From Candidatus Ornithospirochaeta stercoripullorum (GTDB taxonomy: Bacteria; Spirochaetota; Spirochaetia; Sphaerochaetales; Sphaerochaetaceae): a DNA stretch of 36,449 nucleotides. Below the pieces are notes generated by a model. It was not told where the DNA came from. It did no database searches and saw only the letters and a list, made by a program, of their open reading frames with translations. The DNA lies in assembly GCA_017694595.1 (NCBI GenBank), contig JADIMT010000070.1, positions 1-36,449 on the forward strand, written 5' to 3'. Each line of letters begins with the position of its first letter. Within the stretch, counting starts at the first letter, position 1. Positions 27,042-36,449 of this stretch are shown here, one piece after another. Position numbers and translations under genes: made by a program.

Positions 27042-28487
27042 ATGAAAAAAACTGTAGCTGTATTCATCCTTTTCTCTGCGCTTTTTGCAATCAACGCTGC
27101 GGGAATGTCCGAATACACACCAATGATTACTGTTCAGCCTTCGAATTTGCAGGCTGAAGAGACAAAAGCACAAGCCAGGAGCATTTCCCAGATTCTCTAC
27201 TCGCTTGGAAATCTCTATTCATATCTCGACAATAATTTTCTCTATGACATAGATACTGAATCAATAGAGACAGGTCTCATAACCGCCATGATCGACTCTC
27301 TCGGAGATCAGTACTCATACTACATCCCTCCAGAAAGCGCATTGGACTTTGAAGAAAACACAGAAGGCGAATATGTAGGCATTGGAACATATCTCACAAA
27401 AATGAATCCAGCACATGCAGATCCAGATGATCCTGAAAGCTGGATGGTTATTATAGCCTCACCCTTTCCAGGTGGCCCTGCAGATCGTGCTGGCTTAAGA
27501 CCTCGGGATATGATCAGTGCTATAAATGGTGAAAATGTTGCATCAATGACAGCAACAGAAGCCTCAGATATGATGAAGGGACATATAGGAGATGATATAA
27601 CACTGACAGTTCATAGAGGCTCGGCGGTCTTTGACATCACACTCCAGCCAGAAGTCGTCACTACACCTTCAACGGTTTCAGGCATGCTGACTGATGATAT
27701 AGGATATATTGCTATCTATACATTCTCCCTTACAACAGGAACATCTTTCATCAACGATATCGAAAAGCTTCTCTCAGCAGGCGCAGAAAAGTTGATTATA
27801 GATTTGAGAAACAATGGCGGAGGAACTGTACAGAGCGCACTGGAAATAGCAGATCTCTTCCTATCAAGCGGAGAGATGCTGGAGACAAAATACAAGCCAG
27901 CCTCAGGACGATCAGAGACAATCATATATGCAGACCAGGATATTCTTATTCCTGAAGATATCCCTCTTCTCTTGATCGTCAATGGCGGAACGGCCTCCTC
28001 CAGCGAAATCCTTACAGGTGCGCTTAAAGACAACGGCAGGGCGATCGTACTTGGCAGCCAGACATTCGGCAAAGGAATCTCACAGGAGATAAGACCTTAT
28101 AGAGGCGGCTTCATACAAATCACAACAGGCCATTTCTACACGCCTTCAGGCAATGACATACATGAAGTAGGCATCACACCTGATATCCTCGTAGAGGAAC
28201 CAGAATACACAGATGAGGAAATGGAAGCATTCGAAGCTTTCATGGAAGAAGACAGATTCTCTTCCTACATAGAGGAATATCCAGAATACACAAAGGAGAA
28301 TATAGAGAATTTCGCAAAGGAAAATAACTCTAGCGGAGTTCCTGAAGACCTTTTGCGGATACTCATACGAAATGAATATCTCTATACGATGGATTACGAT
28401 GAAAGACCTGTTGCAGATATCTGGTTCGATCCATATATAACAGCAGCACTGGAGGATATGGATGAGAGTATTCCTTCTGAAACATGA
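27042..28487 (+). CDS. S41-family C-terminal processing protease
   Basis: A 481-residue exported serine protease of the CtpA/Prc family. Residues 1-21 form a signal peptide (MKKTVAVFILFSALFAINAA). A PDZ domain follows the N-terminal helices, visible as ASPFPGGPADRAGLRPRDMI, and the S41 domain has NGGTASSSEILTGAL (314-328) with the serine cluster and QTFGKG with the catalytic Lys (K344). It would trim the C-termini of periplasmic or membrane proteins. The ATG at 27042 is chosen over an in-frame upstream ATG at 26964 because the signal peptide begins there. It overlaps rsmE by 26 bases. Confidence 0.92.
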   Translation: MKKTVAVFILFSALFAINAAGMSEYTPMITVQPSNLQAEETKAQARSISQILYSLGNLYSYLDNNFLYDIDTESIETGLITAMIDSLGDQYSYYIPPESALDFEENTEGEYVGIGTYLTKMNPAHADPDDPESWMVIIASPFPGGPADRAGLRPRDMISAINGENVASMTATEASDMMKGHIGDDITLTVHRGSAVFDITLQPEVVTTPSTVSGMLTDDIGYIAIYTFSLTTGTSFINDIEKLLSAGAEKLIIDLRNNGGGTVQSALEIADLFLSSGEMLETKYKPASGRSETIIYADQDILIPEDIPLLLIVNGGTASSSEILTGALKDNGRAIVLGSQTFGKGISQEIRPYRGGFIQITTGHFYTPSGNDIHEVGITPDILVEEPEYTDEEMEAFEAFMEEDRFSSYIEEYPEYTKENIENFAKENNSSGVPEDLLRILIRNEYLYTMDYDERPVADIWFDPYITAALEDMDESIPSET

Positions 28488-29196
28488 AAGCAAAGATGGA
28501 ATATACCATCTGACAACAAAAGAGAAAAACTATCTCTTCAGAGTACTGAGACTTAATGTAAACGATATCTTCACTGCGAAAGATAGCAAGGAACAGTACT
28601 ACAAAGCATTTCTCTTTGATGAAAACAGCATTACACTTGAGAAAACAGAGAAACCAGAAGAGACGCTGCTCGATTCTCTCTCTTCTTACAGAGGCCCATT
28701 CGTGCCGCTTACTGTTTTCATATCTGTATTGAAAGGCAAAAAGAACGAGATACAGGTACGAGCCCTGACAGAGATAGGCGTATCAAGAATTGTCCTGATG
28801 AATACATCATTCACGCAATCACCTTTATCACAACATGAAATAGAGAGATTGAAAGCAATAATTGCCGAAGCTGTTCAGCAATCAGGTAGCAAGGAGCCCG
28901 AACTTGAAGGGCCTGTTGATTTCACTTCAGCGCTTTCACTGGCAGACAATCTAACATTGATACTTCACCAAAGCTCTCTCGAGAAAACAAAAACACTGTC
29001 AGAAGCATTATCAGATGCTGATATAAACACAAGAATATCAGTAATGATAGGACCTGAAGGAGGTTTTTCAGATGATGAATGCGATAAAGCACTCTCAAAA
29101 GGAGCCATCCCAGTCCTGCTTAATACAAACATACTCAGAGCTGAAACAGCTGCAATCTACACAGCATCAGCGGTACAAGCATTGCTGCAGAACTGA
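28462..29196 (+). CDS. rsmE: 16S rRNA (uracil-1498-N3) methyltransferase
   Basis: A 244-residue SPOUT-class enzyme that methylates N3 of U1498 in 16S rRNA. The N-terminal PUA-like domain starts MRVFLLKHESKDGIYHLT. The knotted C-terminal domain has ISVMIGPEGGFSDDEC and ILRAETAAIYTASAV, the SAM-binding motifs of the family. GGAGGA precedes the ATG within the end of the protease gene. It is the last gene with the composition of the chromosome before the AT-rich island. Confidence 0.95.
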   Translation: MRVFLLKHESKDGIYHLTTKEKNYLFRVLRLNVNDIFTAKDSKEQYYKAFLFDENSITLEKTEKPEETLLDSLSSYRGPFVPLTVFISVLKGKKNEIQVRALTEIGVSRIVLMNTSFTQSPLSQHEIERLKAIIAEAVQQSGSKEPELEGPVDFTSALSLADNLTLILHQSSLEKTKTLSEALSDADINTRISVMIGPEGGFSDDECDKALSKGAIPVLLNTNILRAETAAIYTASAVQALLQN

Positions 29197-29284
29197 AGTC
29201 TATTACATCTAATTCTAAAGATTATAGAGCAATGAAAATTCCTACCGCCTTTCCATTGTTTCAAGTACGAATTTAACTGAAGTC
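29191..29284. repeat. Direct repeat AACTGAAGTC at the edge of the AT-rich island
   Basis: The ten bases AACTGAAGTC occur at 29191-29200, covering the rsmE stop, and again at 29275-29284. A shared ATTGCTG lies close to each copy. They enclose about 74 bases that hold no gene. This could be the trace of an insertion event, or chance. Confidence 0.45.
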
Positions 29285-29324
29285 CTAAACTGTATTGCTG
29301 AATCCCTGTTATATTATTTTTACG

Positions 29325-29339
29325 TACCATATAATGGTA
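29325..29339. promoter_or_regulatory. Inverted repeat over a TATAAT box upstream of the defence operon
   Basis: TACCAT-ATA-ATGGTA is a perfect 6-3-6 inverted repeat that contains a consensus TATAAT (29330-29335). No good -35 lies upstream. An operator overlapping the -10 box would permit tight control of the four-gene operon. Confidence 0.45.
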
Positions 29340-29387
29340 ATGGTTCCACATAATTATACAACACTGTGGGGGAAAAGGATTGGGTAT

Positions 29388-30875
29388 ATGGGTTATATTC
29401 CAGCTGAGATTAATGTCTCAAACTTCATTGAATCATACCGCAATATAGGTTATTCAATTGAGACCGCTATATCAGATATTATTGACAATAGCATAGCTGC
29501 AAAAGCCTCAGAGATACAAATCAACATGATTCTTCATGACGAAAAAACATGTAGTCCCAGAATTATGATTCTCGATAACGGGTTTGGCATGGATAATGAG
29601 GAATTGATTCAAGCAATGCATTTAGCTTGTCATTCCCCGTTAGAAAAACGAAATCCTGAAGATCTAGGGCGTTTTGGACTTGGTTTGAAATCAGCTTCTT
29701 TCTCCCAATGCAAATTACTCACTGTTATATCACGCAAAAAAGGCTGTATCACTTGTGCAAAAGCCTGGGACATAGATCACGTGCGTAACTACGGAAAACT
29801 TGAAATCGAGGACTGCCCTGTTTCTGAATATGAAGATTTGTTACCCTATGAAACCGGCACAGTAGTAATTTGGGATCGTATCGATAGAGTCAATTTGAGT
29901 CCAAAAGATTCTGAACAGAAAAATAAAGAACATTGGAATCTAATAAGAAATAAAATTTATAATCACATCGCAATTACATATGGAGCTTTCAAAGAAAACA
30001 TCTCTTTCTTCTTCAACGGTAATCAAATCAGACTCTGGGATCCATTTTGCTTAGACAAAGAAGAAACAATACTTCTAGCTGATGAATATATTGCTATCGG
30101 AAACGACCGGATTCGTGTTCGTCCATATATTCTTCCTTTGGGTATCGATGAAACGGAAGGTTCTCAAAGAGAACTTGGTAAAACACTTAACGACATGCAA
30201 GGGTTTTATATTTACCGCAATAATCGACTTATACTCTATGGTACATGGCTTGGCCTTCCAAAACTCAGTAACAAAGAAGCTTATAGATTAGCAAGAATAA
30301 AAATAGATATTGGAAACTCCATGGATGAACTCTGGCAGATTGATATCAAGAAAGAGAATGCGGTTTGCCCTCCTTCTATTACAGACAGGCTTTTATCTTA
30401 TGCAAATAAGGCAAGGCAAGAGTCTAGTAACAAATTCAGAAAGAGAGGGAAAACATTACAACGCAAATCAAATTCTCAATATGAACCGTCATATCTTTGG
30501 ACATACGGAATAAACAAGGATAAGAAGCCCTACTTTGAGATCAACAGAAAAAATCCTGTTATAAAAGGATTTATTGATACACTTGACTCTAAGCAACATG
30601 AGAACTTTTTATTCCTACTGAAATGTTTTGAAAACTATTTACCTATAATGAGTATTCTAGAACAAGAAACTCTGTCTGATGAAAAATATTTTACAAATGA
30701 AGCTTCTGATATTTCTGATAAAGAAATCAAGTTATTGTTTACTGAAACTATCAATCAAGAAATCAAAAATGGCGTAAATCGTAATAAAGCATTGCAAAAA
30801 TGTTTACAAACCGAACCATTCTCGCAGTATCCGCATTTATTTATAGATGAGTACAAGGAGGCTTTCCCATCATGA
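29388..30875 (+). CDS. MORC/MutL-like GHKL ATPase
   Basis: A 495-residue protein whose first 200 residues form a GHKL ATP-binding fold. The N-box is DIIDNSIAA (30-38), the G1 box ILDNGFGMD (61-69) and the G2 box GRFGLGLKSASFS (94-106). The residue expected to be the catalytic Glu is Asp30. An S5/transducer-like region follows, ending with KENAVCPPS; the C-terminal 130 residues are unfamiliar. ATPases of this MORC-like group are known from genomic surveys beside Z1 helicases and nucleases in restriction-like loci. The ATG at 29388 follows AAGGA by eight bases; the longer frame from 29295 crosses the promoter region. Its stop overlaps the helicase start (ATGA). Confidence 0.87.
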   Translation: MGYIPAEINVSNFIESYRNIGYSIETAISDIIDNSIAAKASEIQINMILHDEKTCSPRIMILDNGFGMDNEELIQAMHLACHSPLEKRNPEDLGRFGLGLKSASFSQCKLLTVISRKKGCITCAKAWDIDHVRNYGKLEIEDCPVSEYEDLLPYETGTVVIWDRIDRVNLSPKDSEQKNKEHWNLIRNKIYNHIAITYGAFKENISFFFNGNQIRLWDPFCLDKEETILLADEYIAIGNDRIRVRPYILPLGIDETEGSQRELGKTLNDMQGFYIYRNNRLILYGTWLGLPKLSNKEAYRLARIKIDIGNSMDELWQIDIKKENAVCPPSITDRLLSYANKARQESSNKFRKRGKTLQRKSNSQYEPSYLWTYGINKDKKPYFEINRKNPVIKGFIDTLDSKQHENFLFLLKCFENYLPIMSILEQETLSDEKYFTNEASDISDKEIKLLFTETINQEIKNGVNRNKALQKCLQTEPFSQYPHLFIDEYKEAFPS

Positions 30876-33802
30876 TAGATGATAAGAATAGAAAATTAGT
30901 TGAAAAATGTTTTATTGATGCTCTTTCTGAACTTAAAGAGCTCGAACAGGCTAGCAATGAACCATTATCTGATGAAATAGTAGAGGCTTGTATACGATAT
31001 AAAATTGCATGTCTGCTAAAAACTCTTAATCAGGAAGATAAGGATAATGCTTACCAAACAATAAGACATAATATTGATAAAGAATTAACACAAACTAGAA
31101 CCAATATCACATTTTTGTCTGACGCTACAGGTCATGAAGCATGGCTGACACATGAACGAATTAATACTATCAAATGGGAACATTGGCATGCTTATAGAAA
31201 CTACCTCATTGAGGAGCATGCTAAAGAGGATCAGATTATAAGCCTTCAAGAAACAACATTTAAGATCCTAGCTAAACTGGAAGATCCTGAACGCCCTGCT
31301 CCTTGGGATACCAGAGGACTTGTTGTAGGTGATGTGCAAGCAGGTAAAACATCAAACTATATTGGATTACTTGCAAAAGCTATCGATGCTGGTTACAAAT
31401 TCATTATTATTTTGGCAGGCATGACAAGTGATCTTAGACTCCAAACACAAAAAAGAATCGATGCGGGGCTCTTGGGACGAAGTACAGCAACGCAAGGTGA
31501 ACATGGAATCATTAAAGGCAAAGGATTCCCTGGAAAAATAATTATTCCAATGACAATGGCAAGTGTAAAAGGAGATTTCAATAAAGGTGCATCATCAAGT
31601 TTCCAACCAATTTCTGAAGATAACTGTTATTTATATGTTGTAAAAAAGAACGTAAGCGTCCTTAGAAATCTTTATAAAGATTTACAAAGTAAAGTTGAGA
31701 ATGGTCATAAGATTTCACAACCACTCATTATGATTGATGATGAAGCAGACAATGCTTCTCTAAATGGAAAAATGGTTGAGTATGACCTTTTTACAAACAA
31801 ACCAGTTGATCAAGATGAAATAAATCCCACAGCTATAAATAGATTCATCAGAGCAATCCTTTGCTGCTTCTCTAGAAGTGCATATATTGGGTATACAGCG
31901 ACTCCTTTTGCTAACTTATTTGGTGTTCCTGATATAGAGAAAGAACTTTCTTTCTATGATGCTCATTTAAAACAAGAAGTTAAGATTGGAGAAGATTTAT
32001 TTCCAAGAAGTTTTGTATCATATTTAAAATCCCCCGCTAGTTATTATGGGCCTGAACGCATATTCGGATTTTCTTATGATGACGAAAAGAGAATACCAGT
32101 AGTAGTTAACATAAACGAAAAATTTCCAAATGATCTTACTTACATAGATAAAAATGGAAAAGAAACAAAACAACCTTTCTCTGTAAAATACACAACCAAA
32201 GGGAAAAAACTCATACCAAACAAGCTTAAACCACTTAAAGAAATGCCTGAATCAATGAAATATTCTATTCGGGCTTTCATTCTTGCCTCTATTGTCAGAA
32301 GAAAAAGAAAAGGCTTTGACGATATTGTACATAATACAATGCTAATCCACATTGATAGATATACTGCAGTGCATGGGAAACTAAAAGAATGGGTCAATGA
32401 TTATATTGATGAAATGAAGACTCTGTTTGATACAGGCGAACCTGCAGAACATTCTGAATTTATGAATGATATGAAAGATATCTGGGAAAAAGAATTTAAA
32501 GCGAAAGAACAAGCTTTTTTATCTATGGTAGATGATCCTGACATAGTACCATATGAATGGGATAATATATCCGACACAATCCCTATCATATTAAGAGAAA
32601 TTTCTTGTGTCATCGTAAATGGAACAAAAGAAGGACAAAATCTTGATTATGACAATGCAAAGAACAGTTTGACTGTAATTGCAATTGGTGGTGACAAACT
32701 TGCTAGAGGTTTAACTCTTGAAGGCTTAACTACAAGTTATTTCTTACGGTCATCAAAATTATTCGATTCTCTTTCTCAAATGGGCCGTTGGTTTGGTTAT
32801 CGTAATGGATATATTGATGTCTGCAGAATATATGCAAATTCTCAAATTCTATCTTTCTTCGAAGAAGTTGCGGAGTCTTCTTATGATTTAAAACAACAGT
32901 TTGAAGAGCTAAGAACAAAAGAAAATATGACGCCTAGAAAGTTCGGATTTCGAGTTAGAACAAGACCTTCTTCTGCCATGGAAATTACTGCAAAATCAAA
33001 GTCTCCTAACAAACATAATTTAAAATACTCCTTTTCAGATTGTGCCGTACCTACAGCTTATGTACCTAACGATCCCGAATATAATGAAAAGAATTATAAA
33101 GTATTTACATCATTTATTGAAAAGATGGGCTCTCCGTCAGGGTATGGAAGGAATGTACAAACTGAAAGCAGAAATAAAAAGTCAGTCAGATGGGAGAAAG
33201 TTAATCTCAATCTAATTATAGAAGAGTTTCTGAAAAAAGTTTATGTCGATGAAGCAAACTTCAAATTCTCCGCTAGTGGAATAGAAGATTATATTCATCG
33301 TATGAATAAAAAAGGAGAATTACAAAACTGGACAGTTGCGCTTATTTCTGGTGATGGAAAAGAGACCGAGCTGAATCCCTATATAAAAATTCGTCAATCA
33401 CAAAGAAAAATCGAAATGGCAAGAACAACCTGCTATGAGTTAGATAGAAGAAGACTACCTACAGGTAATGACGAGTCTTTTGATTTAACTATTGAACAGT
33501 TTAACAAGGCTCTTATGGAAACAAATAAACTACGAAAACAAAACGGAAAAAACGAAACAAATACACCAGCTCCACATGAGATTAGAAAAATTAGAGGTGC
33601 CGATAGATGTTTATTGTTATTATATTTGCTTGAAATAGAAACTGTTAATAAAGAGAAAATCTATGGCATCCCAGGGTTTATGATCAGTTTTCCTGAATCA
33701 AATGACCCTGATGCAGATGCAGAATATTTAATGAATAATGTGTATGCAAAAAATTTAAAAATTGATGAAGCAAATGGTAATGCGGAGGAAGAGGATGATT
33801 AA
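30872..33802 (+). CDS. Z1-domain superfamily II helicase/ATPase
   Basis: A 976-residue helicase-like protein. Walker A is GDVQAGKTSN (153-162), Walker B is MIDDEADNAS with the acidic core 289-293, motif III reads YTATPFANL, motif V is IGGDKLARGLTLEG and motif VI is SQMGRWFGYR (635-644). The last part, with the conserved GRWFGYR, belongs to the Z1 domain known from MORC-associated restriction systems. An N-terminal helical region of 150 residues and a C-terminal 330 residues have no match I can name. AGGAGG precedes the ATG by about ten bases. It is expected to translocate or remodel DNA in concert with the ATPase and nuclease. The codon use is AT-rich. Confidence 0.9.
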   Translation: MIDDKNRKLVEKCFIDALSELKELEQASNEPLSDEIVEACIRYKIACLLKTLNQEDKDNAYQTIRHNIDKELTQTRTNITFLSDATGHEAWLTHERINTIKWEHWHAYRNYLIEEHAKEDQIISLQETTFKILAKLEDPERPAPWDTRGLVVGDVQAGKTSNYIGLLAKAIDAGYKFIIILAGMTSDLRLQTQKRIDAGLLGRSTATQGEHGIIKGKGFPGKIIIPMTMASVKGDFNKGASSSFQPISEDNCYLYVVKKNVSVLRNLYKDLQSKVENGHKISQPLIMIDDEADNASLNGKMVEYDLFTNKPVDQDEINPTAINRFIRAILCCFSRSAYIGYTATPFANLFGVPDIEKELSFYDAHLKQEVKIGEDLFPRSFVSYLKSPASYYGPERIFGFSYDDEKRIPVVVNINEKFPNDLTYIDKNGKETKQPFSVKYTTKGKKLIPNKLKPLKEMPESMKYSIRAFILASIVRRKRKGFDDIVHNTMLIHIDRYTAVHGKLKEWVNDYIDEMKTLFDTGEPAEHSEFMNDMKDIWEKEFKAKEQAFLSMVDDPDIVPYEWDNISDTIPIILREISCVIVNGTKEGQNLDYDNAKNSLTVIAIGGDKLARGLTLEGLTTSYFLRSSKLFDSLSQMGRWFGYRNGYIDVCRIYANSQILSFFEEVAESSYDLKQQFEELRTKENMTPRKFGFRVRTRPSSAMEITAKSKSPNKHNLKYSFSDCAVPTAYVPNDPEYNEKNYKVFTSFIEKMGSPSGYGRNVQTESRNKKSVRWEKVNLNLIIEEFLKKVYVDEANFKFSASGIEDYIHRMNKKGELQNWTVALISGDGKETELNPYIKIRQSQRKIEMARTTCYELDRRRLPTGNDESFDLTIEQFNKALMETNKLRKQNGKNETNTPAPHEIRKIRGADRCLLLLYLLEIETVNKEKIYGIPGFMISFPESNDPDADAEYLMNNVYAKNLKIDEANGNAEEEDD

Positions 33803-34772
33803 CATTATCAATCTGTTTAAAATGCTAGAAGATGAATATCCTTCGTCTCATGATGATTATACTCGTAAAATTGATACTCCAGATCAATTACCAATTTATG
33901 CTGGAATATCTGCTGAAAAGAAATCTTTTATTAGTATTAAGATGGATACAAACTTAATTGCTATATCAACTGATATTGTTAGTTGTTCAGGATATGACGT
34001 AAGAAAATATAAAATCAATGAAACAGAATTCGATTTTCGCCTTATAATTTGCGATTTACAAAATAAATCCATTTTCTATACTGTGATTCAAGACTTAGTA
34101 GATTCTGTCTCTTTTATTGGCTCTTCAGTAGAAATACTTATCAATCGACTAAGAAGATGGAATATCTTTTTCAAACATAGTCCGTCAGGTGTCTTATCAA
34201 AGAAAAATCAAATTGGTCTATTTGGTGAACTTTGTTTCATAAAAGATAATATCGCTCGTAGCAATGGATTAATTATCAATTGTTGGAATGGACCGAAAGG
34301 AGAATCAAAGGACTTCATGTTTGATTCCTTTGCCGTTGAAGTTAAGACTTCCTCTCAAGAAGATCATCAAACCATTCGAATATCAAACGAAAATCAATTA
34401 GATAAAGCAGGTTTGAAGGAATTATATTTGATTTTCAATATTGTAAATGAAGACCAAATGGATGGCTCAACATTACCAGAGTTTATTAAAGAGATAAAAG
34501 TGCTACTTAAGAAACATCATATAATGATTGAGAAATTCGAAGAGTTATTATTTGGCATAGGATATGACGATAGATTTTCAGAATTGTATACAGAAAGGTT
34601 TATTCGTTCAGCAAGCTGGATCTTTAACGTAAATGATGATTTCCCAAAAATCATACCAGCTGATTTGGCAAAAGGTATTAGTAATGTTTCATACTCTGTT
34701 GACTTTTCTATATGTAAGAATTTTGATGGGAGAAATATCCTCGAAAATAGTCTAGGTGGGTATTTTAAATGA
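33795..34772 (+). CDS. PD-(D/E)XK nuclease-like protein (DUF4420-like)
   Basis: A 325-residue protein with a nuclease core at about 139-186: Glu145 in GLFGELCF, Asp173 in SKDFMF, and the ExK pair E182-V-K184 in AVEVKTSS. This is the arrangement of PD-(D/E)XK proteins annotated as DUF4420. The N-terminal 130 residues are beta-rich, and the C-terminal 130 helical. The ATG at 33795 follows GGAGG and overlaps the helicase stop by eight bases; the longer frame at 33762 lies inside the helicase gene. It is the most likely DNA-cutting component of the operon. Confidence 0.85.
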   Translation: MINIINLFKMLEDEYPSSHDDYTRKIDTPDQLPIYAGISAEKKSFISIKMDTNLIAISTDIVSCSGYDVRKYKINETEFDFRLIICDLQNKSIFYTVIQDLVDSVSFIGSSVEILINRLRRWNIFFKHSPSGVLSKKNQIGLFGELCFIKDNIARSNGLIINCWNGPKGESKDFMFDSFAVEVKTSSQEDHQTIRISNENQLDKAGLKELYLIFNIVNEDQMDGSTLPEFIKEIKVLLKKHHIMIEKFEELLFGIGYDDRFSELYTERFIRSASWIFNVNDDFPKIIPADLAKGISNVSYSVDFSICKNFDGRNILENSLGGYFK

Positions 34773-36449
34773 GTAGAACATTAGACTTTTATTATGAACT
34801 CATGAATGGAATTGAATATGAGTTAGAGGCATCAACTGATAACGGTGCTACAAAAGAACTTTTGTTTACTAGTAAAGTCATTGAAACATTAAGCGACGGA
34901 AATAACCCTTTATTAAATGGTATAGATGGAGATGTTTTTAGATACGCACCAACCGCTTTTTCTTATCATATAAACGGATATAGAATCAATGATGATGAAA
35001 AATCGATTACTGTGTATGTTACAGATTTCGTTGACTCGCAAAATCTAGTATTCCGTAATCAGAGAGAAGTCGAAAGCTGCATGAAAGGTGTCCAGGAATT
35101 TATGAAGCTGTGTATTACAGATTCGAAAAATATTTTAAATCAAACTATGGACTATCCGATATACGAATTTGTATATCAAATATCTCACAATTATCAAGAT
35201 TACAATGAAATCAATTATGTTTACATCACAAATGCATCTGTCAGAGAAATCAAATTGCCTTCTTTCTTGTTCAATCATCATAAAGTAAACATCATATTGA
35301 TAGATTTGGAACGATACAGACGATTTTGTGACGGCAAAAAAATTTTGAGTATAGATGCAGATTTGAACATATTAGAATCACCTATCCCTTTCGTATCTTT
35401 TTGTGGCATAAATAATGATTATGACACTTATTGTCTCTTGTTTCCTGGAAAAGTATTATTCAATTTCTTTGATGCGTACCATTATCAACTACTCAATAGT
35501 AATGTTAGAACTTACCTACAACTAAAAGGTTCCGTAAACCAAGGAATAATGGAAACCATAAAGAATGAACCAGAAAATTTTCTTGCATATAATAATGGAA
35601 TCTCTGCCGTAGCAACGTCTGTAGAAATTGATAATGGATGTTTGGTTAAAGTATGCGATTTTCAAATAGTCAATGGTGGACAAACTTCAGCGTCTATTTA
35701 TAATGCTGTATTAAAAGGCTATTCCGTCGAGAAAATCCGAGTTCAAGTGAAGCTAACAGTCATAAAGAACATGACAAAAAGAAACGAGATCATTAAATGT
35801 ATATCTCGTTATGCAAATACACAGAATGCAATTAAATTCTCGGATTTTTCTTCCAATGATAAATATAATAAAACATTATCTGACTTATCAAGAAGTGTAT
35901 GTGCACCACAAATTGACTCACGCTTGCCAAAAAAATGGTATTACGAAAATGTAGCAGGAGCATACAATATAGAAAAAAGTGATGCTGGTGCTACTTTTGA
36001 AAAGGAATATCCCAAATCACAGATGTTTACAAAAACAGATATGGCTGCATATGAATTGTCATATCAAGGATTTCCTGCTGAAGCATGTAAAGGATCACAA
36101 GATGCATATAAAATTTTTGTTCAGAACTTAGAATATCTTGATACCCCCACTATCTCTGATTTTCAACATTTGATAGCAAAGAAAATACTATTTGATTCAA
36201 CACTGAAAATCATAAACGAATTGGGAGGCCAAGGAAAGAAAGCAATGGCTTGTTATGTTGTTGCCTACATGTCGACTGTTGTTTGTGATAATAAACTCAA
36301 TCTTGATGCGATATGGAGAAAACAAGAAATCAGCGAAGATCTTGAATCAGATCTAAGAGCACTAGTCTACCAAATATGTCCATCTCTAAGGAAAGAAGCT
36401 GCTGAAATTGGAAGAAATGTTGATATGTATTGCAGAATGAAACTAACAT
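34769..36449 (+). CDS. AIPR-family protein (partial, 3' end outside window)
   Basis: 560 codons are visible without a stop, beginning MSRTLDFYYELMNGIEYELE. The AIPR signature is plain: NVRTYLQLKGSVNQGI at 245-260, then ENFLAYNNGIS (269-279) and FQIVNGGQTSAS (298-309). AIPR proteins are linked to abortive infection against phage, and some lie beside restriction genes. Its ATG overlaps the stop of the nuclease gene (ATGA) with a weak AGGTGGG upstream, so it is coupled to the operon. Genes after it are not visible. Confidence 0.9.
   Translation, partial: MSRTLDFYYELMNGIEYELEASTDNGATKELLFTSKVIETLSDGNNPLLNGIDGDVFRYAPTAFSYHINGYRINDDEKSITVYVTDFVDSQNLVFRNQREVESCMKGVQEFMKLCITDSKNILNQTMDYPIYEFVYQISHNYQDYNEINYVYITNASVREIKLPSFLFNHHKVNIILIDLERYRRFCDGKKILSIDADLNILESPIPFVSFCGINNDYDTYCLLFPGKVLFNFFDAYHYQLLNSNVRTYLQLKGSVNQGIMETIKNEPENFLAYNNGISAVATSVEIDNGCLVKVCDFQIVNGGQTSASIYNAVLKGYSVEKIRVQVKLTVIKNMTKRNEIIKCISRYANTQNAIKFSDFSSNDKYNKTLSDLSRSVCAPQIDSRLPKKWYYENVAGAYNIEKSDAGATFEKEYPKSQMFTKTDMAAYELSYQGFPAEACKGSQDAYKIFVQNLEYLDTPTISDFQHLIAKKILFDSTLKIINELGGQGKKAMACYVVAYMSTVVCDNKLNLDAIWRKQEISEDLESDLRALVYQICPSLRKEAAEIGRNVDMYCRMKLT

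Follow-up and report, generated by a model that had tools for sequence, protein, structure and literature searches.

A divergent spirochaete operon of the MORC-Z1-DUF4420-AIPR kind, probably a restriction-modification-like anti-phage system, inserted behind rsmE

Gene sets that combine a MORC ATPase with a helicase, a nuclease, and their neighbors have been described under several names. Iyer, Abhiman and Aravind (2008) were the first to report this kind of gene set, placing it in the third class of their MORC-SFII helicase operons, and read it as a restriction operon in which methylases are frequent but not universal (PMC2292703). The same authors proposed ATP-driven looping for MORC. Miller et al. 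(2022) described the gene set as a putative defense system in which a cytosine methyltransferase is a core gene (PMC9523054), and the MzaABCDE anti-phage system is credited to Gao et al. (2020), as cited in PMC9523054. The closest precedent from biochemistry is CglI/NgoAVII, where protection comes from a C5-methyltransferase and a separate nuclease is powered by an ATPase that carries a Z1 domain (PMC4267653). They provide a case in which a Z1 protein supplies the ATP-driven motor in restriction (PMC4267653).

Here, we analyzed a stretch of 36,449 bases (the window), which is the entire contig C44 of the draft genome G000 (113 contigs, 83% complete). Reading of the open frames at positions 29388-36449 revealed four forward ORFs with consecutive overlaps of exactly 4, 8, and 4 bases, as the first-pass annotation had claimed. 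The operon and its left flank are laid out as follows.

28462..29196, + strand: rsmE (16S rRNA methyltransferase), the last core gene 5' of the island, marking its left junction
29197..29387, + strand: leader between rsmE and mzaB, 191 bases, without a methyltransferase gene
29388..30875, + strand: MzaB-like MORC/MutL-type GHKL ATPase, 495 aa (PADLOC MzaB, 2.5e-66; HATPase_c_3, 3.7e-32)
30872..33802, + strand: MzaC-like Z1 SF2 helicase/translocase, 976 aa (PADLOC MzaC, 4.4e-151; Z1, 5.2e-70)
33795..34772, + strand: MzaD-like DUF4420 PD-(D/E)XK nuclease, 325 aa (PADLOC MzaD, 1e-21; DUF4420, 3.5e-63)
34769..36449, + strand: MzaE-like AIPR protein, cut at the contig end (PADLOC MzaE, 7.6e-51; AIPR, 6e-69; AIPR_N)

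All of the Pfam matches listed, AIPR_N included, exceed the curated cut-offs, and together with PADLOC they agree with the component identities first assigned (MORC-like ATPase, Z1, DUF4420 nuclease, and AIPR). On the sequence evidence given below, we consider it highly probable that this operon, one of the MORC-Z1-DUF4420-AIPR kind, encodes a restriction-modification-like anti-phage system, sitting on an island behind rsmE, with its methyltransferase just past the contig end.

The likeness to MzaABCDE lies in the B, C, D, and E genes, which are adjacent, stand in the same order, and each match the corresponding PADLOC Mza model. The differences are that the window has no MzaA, that the scores fall below the cut-offs, and that the Z1 protein lies outside the MzaA-bearing clade. 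NCBIfam bit scores for MzaB, MzaC, MzaD, and MzaE were 267, 580, 129, and 245, all well below the equivalog cut-offs of 850, 1500, 420, and 1050, respectively. No sigma profile matched in the window. In relatives that have the sigma-70-type factor MzaA, it is found immediately upstream of mzaB (PADLOC confirmed the copy in L058); in the window, rsmE is immediately 5' of mzaB. A tree of 112 Z1 proteins placed all MzaA-bearing operons within one clade of 34 rows, mostly proteobacterial. The window lay outside this clade and paired with locus L056 (support 100). The pair belongs to a separate group, which includes many MzaA-less family members and viral contigs; its deeper placement is unsure because both are long branches. 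The top identity to any homologue found was 43% for Z1, among the tree members, and 52% for MORC. Because MzaA is absent and the scores are below the equivalog cut-offs, we refuse the strict Mza label. The operon is Mza-like, or "Type II" in the terms of Miller et al. (2022), and is a further example of an already known system type, of which it is a divergent spirochaete representative.

With the Type II operons (PMC9523054), the window shares Z1, a PD-(D/E)XK DUF protein (printed there as DUF4220 and taken here as DUF4420), AIPR, and an associated MORC. It also shares with them the low similarity to MzaBCDE and the lack of MzaA, which is mostly absent in Type II, but their core cytosine methyltransferase is out of view here, the contig ending in AIPR. 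Like the third class defined by Iyer et al. (PMC2292703), the operon has MORC, an SFII helicase, an E-D-ExK RE-fold protein, and AIPR, which is named there as a common neighbor; no difference is evident in the visible part of the operon. The segment D632SLSQMGRWFG642 of MzaC fits the motif DThhQXuRhFG of Iyer et al., with S replacing T at position 633 and S also at the second h. CglI and NgoAVII (PMC4267653) combine a C5-methyltransferase, an ATP-dependent Z1-domain motor, and a separate nuclease. Their nuclease, however, is of the PLD type with a B3 domain and not DUF4420, and they have neither MORC nor AIPR; by Pfam, no PLD or B3 domain was found in the operon of the window, which has DUF4420 instead. 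The tie to MORC/MutL-like restriction-type operons with Z1 helicases, drawn in the first-pass annotation, is borne out.

Catalytic motifs were read from alignments of the window with 13 to 15 family relatives. In MzaB, D33 N34, D63xG65xG67, G94xxG97xG99xK101, and K321 K322 were invariant, and the top matches of its profile among solved structures were MORC2, MORC4, and MutL. In MzaC, the Walker A motif G153..G158K159T160, D289DEAD, and Q636MGRWFGYR were invariant or nearly so. Among solved structures, a profile search retrieved no relative of the Z1 protein. Its predicted model (mean pLDDT of 77) contains an SF2 motor core, with a Foldseek E value of 7.7e-07 to Mtr4 and VIA Z scores of about 15 to RIG-I and FANCM. 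Residues E145, D173, and E182-x-K184 of MzaD were invariant in 16/16 aligned sequences. As judged from these alignments, the catalytic motifs of MzaB, MzaC, and MzaD are intact.

The fourth frame had been listed as one of four genes, but it is incomplete because the contig ends inside it. The frame spans 559-560 aa with no stop codon before 36449, out of an estimated full length of about 600-710 aa, and AIPR proteins of relatives are mostly 590-780 aa. N275 N276 G277, N302 G303, and Q305 T306 were invariant in the alignment. The predicted model was confident (mean pLDDT of 88). Foldseek gave no significant match to it, an absence that proves nothing, and no solved structure was retrieved as a relative in a profile search. 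With VIA-align, residues 1-190 matched the PD-(D/E)XK proteins AF1548 (Z of 8.9 over 111 residues, 3.3 A) and FokI (Z of 8.0), as well as MspJI, HamA, EndoMS, and Shedu (Z of 5-7), while residues 213-354 matched ParB-N (Z of 7.0 over 97 residues, 3.1 A), PadC (6.4), and sulfiredoxin (4.8). The predicted structure is suggestive of a new two-domain reading of AIPR, with a PD-(D/E)XK-like domain followed by a ParB/Srx-like domain in which N302 G303 and Q305 T306 are located; this fold is a lead only, since VIA-align Z scores below 8 may reflect a mere common arrangement. We considered and rejected an active nuclease in the N-terminal domain: position 81 is D in 69% of relatives, and the residue two positions later is F in 79% instead of K. 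Because the lysine of (D/E)XK is not conserved, this domain is unlikely to be a nuclease. The resemblance between NGGQT and DGQQR raised homology to GmrSD_N/DUF262 as another candidate, and it was dismissed because a profile comparison gave a probability of 0.2%, leaving the link without sequence support. An N-terminal HEPN domain was predicted earlier for AIPR (PMC3506569); unlike that prediction, the N terminus of our predicted structure is not all-helical. AIPR is a constant partner and, on the basis of the model, possibly serves as a nucleotide-binding sensor or a DNA-binding subunit.

Other AIPR arrangements were seen in passing. L098:13784-18285 and L111:12586-17123 carry a tandem AIPR pair 3' of MzaD (about 603 and 883-932 aa), both members being strong matches to the MzaE profile. 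The genome of the window has a second, distinct AIPR gene on contig C73 (L004:3426-8137; 602 aa; AbiU/MzaE models), directly 3' of a 964-aa helicase that matches the PADLOC methyl-directed Type IV restriction model (2e-211); these form a separate two-gene defense unit. The same genome also holds a GmrSD_N (Type IV restriction) gene (G000:C39:5589-6329; L235).

A search of Z1 neighborhoods for the four-gene set, as proposed in the first-pass annotation, counted 97 loci in which B, C, D, and E are kept as a set. The census covered 80 loci on GTDB contigs, 23 on viral contigs, and 19 in family genomes, typed with profiles, and it is biased to classical loci because it was seeded with Z1 loci bearing the conserved motifs. 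Full sets were present in 70 GTDB, 14 viral, and 13 family loci, from Bacteria, Archaea, and viral contigs; 96 of these loci are distinct, family locus L056 being the same as GTDB locus L097. A C5-methyltransferase was located within 6 kb in 68/70 GTDB, 14/14 viral, and 13/13 family loci, or 94/96 distinct loci. Both loci without one are cut by the contig, 310 bases upstream in L117 and 180 bases downstream in L148. In 41 loci, the 2.5 kb upstream lacked a methyltransferase and the downstream sequence extended for 5 kb or more; the gene was downstream in 36/41 of them and 2.5-5.4 kb upstream in 5/41. In L056, the locus of the nearest relative, from the same genus, a C5-methyltransferase (PF00145) lies 24 bases upstream of mzaB.

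We then compared the distance matrices of the proteins. Across 86 loci, pairwise correlations among B, C, D, and E were 0.85-0.94, against 0.13 for the best of 300 label shuffles. Those between the methyltransferase and the operon proteins were 0.44-0.51, against 0.15 at most in shuffles. These correlations speak for joint inheritance and not for contact, as the shared ancestry of whole operons inflates them. Read this way, the data support B-C-D-E as a putative joint machine, and they indicate that the methyltransferase is co-inherited with the operon but apparently exchanged or moved more often. The overlapping frames had been taken to imply a single, stoichiometrically coupled complex. A single functional unit is upheld by the 97 loci and the correlations of 0.85-0.94; stoichiometric coupling does not follow from the overlaps, whose sizes are ordinary in these operons.

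Several loci of the census carry further genes. A related protein of 543-551 aa lies immediately 5' of MzaB in L067:5892-7523, L070:7744-9375, and L066:12377-14032. In L067 it follows an HTH-fused C5-methyltransferase and is matched by PADLOC Type II REase models as well as, marginally and just below the Pfam cut-off, by the FokI cleavage domain, suggesting that the three loci may represent a variant with an additional nuclease. Actinobacterial loci (L125:4645-5949, L126:4609-5913, L130:18218-19582, L147:20617-22383, and L169:4627-5937) have a second MORC-like gene of 434-588 aa that adjoins the C5-methyltransferase, apart from the main operon, and is possibly a paraMORC partner. In the related genome of L058, a Schlafen group 3 helicase gene is found a few genes downstream of the Mza-type operon (L058:15292-17247). 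Z1 relatives occur on 23 viral contigs from IMG/VR (L177-L199), many with a full Mza-like operon and a C5-methyltransferase; this presence indicates that the Mza-like unit is carried by (pro)phages or is caught at prophage borders.

The operon differs in composition from the DNA before it, with 33.4% GC versus 45.1% upstream, where the lowest 7-kb stretch has 44.2%. GC3 is 0.23-0.30 in the operon genes versus 0.43 +/- 0.04 in host genes. In the leader (29197-29387), a consensus scan found no terminator-like site and, for the + strand, no promoter-like site, and an Rfam search found no family. The gene rsmE is present in 48/48 same-genus genomes. In the 14 relatives read with a continuing contig, its 3' neighbor is a LacI-type regulator, followed in most of them by a kinase-like gene, a MATE-type transporter, rubrerythrin, a Fur-type regulator, Jag, and YidC (names read from the sequences and not from a domain search). 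The window has the Mza-like operon immediately 3' of rsmE, in place of the regulator and the conserved block. A Z1 match of any kind was found in 17/139 family genomes and, counting the query, in 5 genomes of the same genus. In G034, the closest relative and the genome of L056, the operon copy is on contig C12 and rsmE on C3. The position directly after rsmE, the patchy occurrence, and the other location in G034 show that the operon is an island inserted at a conserved site and acquired horizontally, with its left junction in view. This agrees with the transfer first suggested from composition. The opposite case, conservation of the operon at the same site in all relatives, was not found, as relatives carry the regulator and the conserved block there.

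What follows the contig end could be approached from the rest of the assembly. None of its other contigs contains a match to the last 200 bases, and none carries the missing end of AIPR. The rsmE-downstream genes of relatives (LacI-type regulator, kinase-like protein, and YidC) have no clear orthologue in the assembly, where only LacI-family paralogues at 36% were found. As a control, a YidC query recovered YidC in three relatives, so a search of this kind does work. Because these genes are lacking, the stretch past the contig end is probably missing from the assembly. No C5-methyltransferase was found in the window, which includes 29 kb upstream of the operon, or in the assembled genome, whose 83% completeness makes this absence weak evidence. 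With none in 29 kb upstream, and given the positions in the census, the gene is expected downstream and most likely lies just past the contig end; its position would then differ within the genus, given the upstream copy in L056. The combination of DUF4420 and AIPR without a methyltransferase, highlighted in the first-pass annotation, can most likely be put down to the position of the contig end.

Could the system instead work without a methyltransferase? Such an effector would tell phage DNA apart by its ends, its replication state, or phage-borne modification and cause abortive infection via AIPR. The lack of the gene from the upstream 29 kb and from the assembly fits this idea, and AIPR/AbiU relatives take their name from abortive infection. 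We regard it as very unlikely, since a C5-methyltransferase adjoins the operon in 94/96 distinct relatives and in every relative whose flanks are complete, the same-genus L056 has it 24 bases from mzaB, and the contig ends inside AIPR with the rsmE-downstream block unassembled. It appears extremely unlikely that the window carries a genuine variant of the family that does without a methyltransferase, recognizes self by another cue, and uses AIPR as a nucleotide-switched sensor of the ParB/Srx type. The island, as a mobile one, could also hold a decayed or inactive remnant maintained by hitch-hiking, as its AT richness and patchiness (17/139 family genomes with any Z1 match) might suggest. However, its frames are long and open, its overlaps tight, and its catalytic residues intact despite 38-52% identity to the nearest relative, a divergence at which drift would have broken frames and residues, and decay has very little probability.

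Eukaryotic MORC proteins act on methylated or silenced chromatin, which counts in favor of a Type IV-like, methylation-dependent complex that attacks modified DNA, the methyltransferase of relatives being a regulator or an unrelated neighbor. The ParB/Srx-like predicted structure of AIPR also favors it, this fold having been proposed for the modification-dependent GmrS (PMC4619093). Yet an active C5-methyltransferase beside a methyl-dependent nuclease would result in host self-attack, and the methyltransferase is found with the operon and has co-evolved with it, making this explanation improbable. A housekeeping DNA-repair complex of a MutL-like ATPase, helicase, and nuclease would account for the resemblance of the GHKL, helicase, and PD-(D/E)XK subunits to mismatch-repair parts (PMC2292703). 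We give it almost no credence: universal syntenic conservation in the genus is contradicted by the patchy distribution (5 same-genus genomes with a Z1 match, query included) and by the different chromosomal sites (after rsmE in the window, on a contig without rsmE in G034), and both the methyltransferase neighbor and the occurrence on viral contigs point away from repair.

Under the restriction-modification-like reading that we favor, a C5-cytosine methyltransferase encoded past the contig end would mark host DNA, as its presence in relatives suggests, and incoming DNA without the mark would be bound. The Z1 SF2 motor may then translocate along the unmarked DNA, driven by ATP, following the CglI precedent. 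The MORC ATPase could act as an ATP-gated clamp, looping or holding the DNA and bringing the complex together, by analogy with MORC/MutL and CglI. Cleavage would fall to the DUF4420 PD-(D/E)XK subunit, as predicted from its intact E-D-ExK site.

These data indicate that a C5-methyltransferase belongs with MORC-Z1-DUF4420-AIPR operons with almost no exceptions. This link speaks for Mza-like systems being of the restriction-modification type and not methylation-independent abortive systems. The fold lead for AIPR offers a testable idea on the role of this protein, and the operon adds a divergent spirochaete example (Z1 identity of at most 43% in the tree) to a widespread and biochemically little-tested restriction family.
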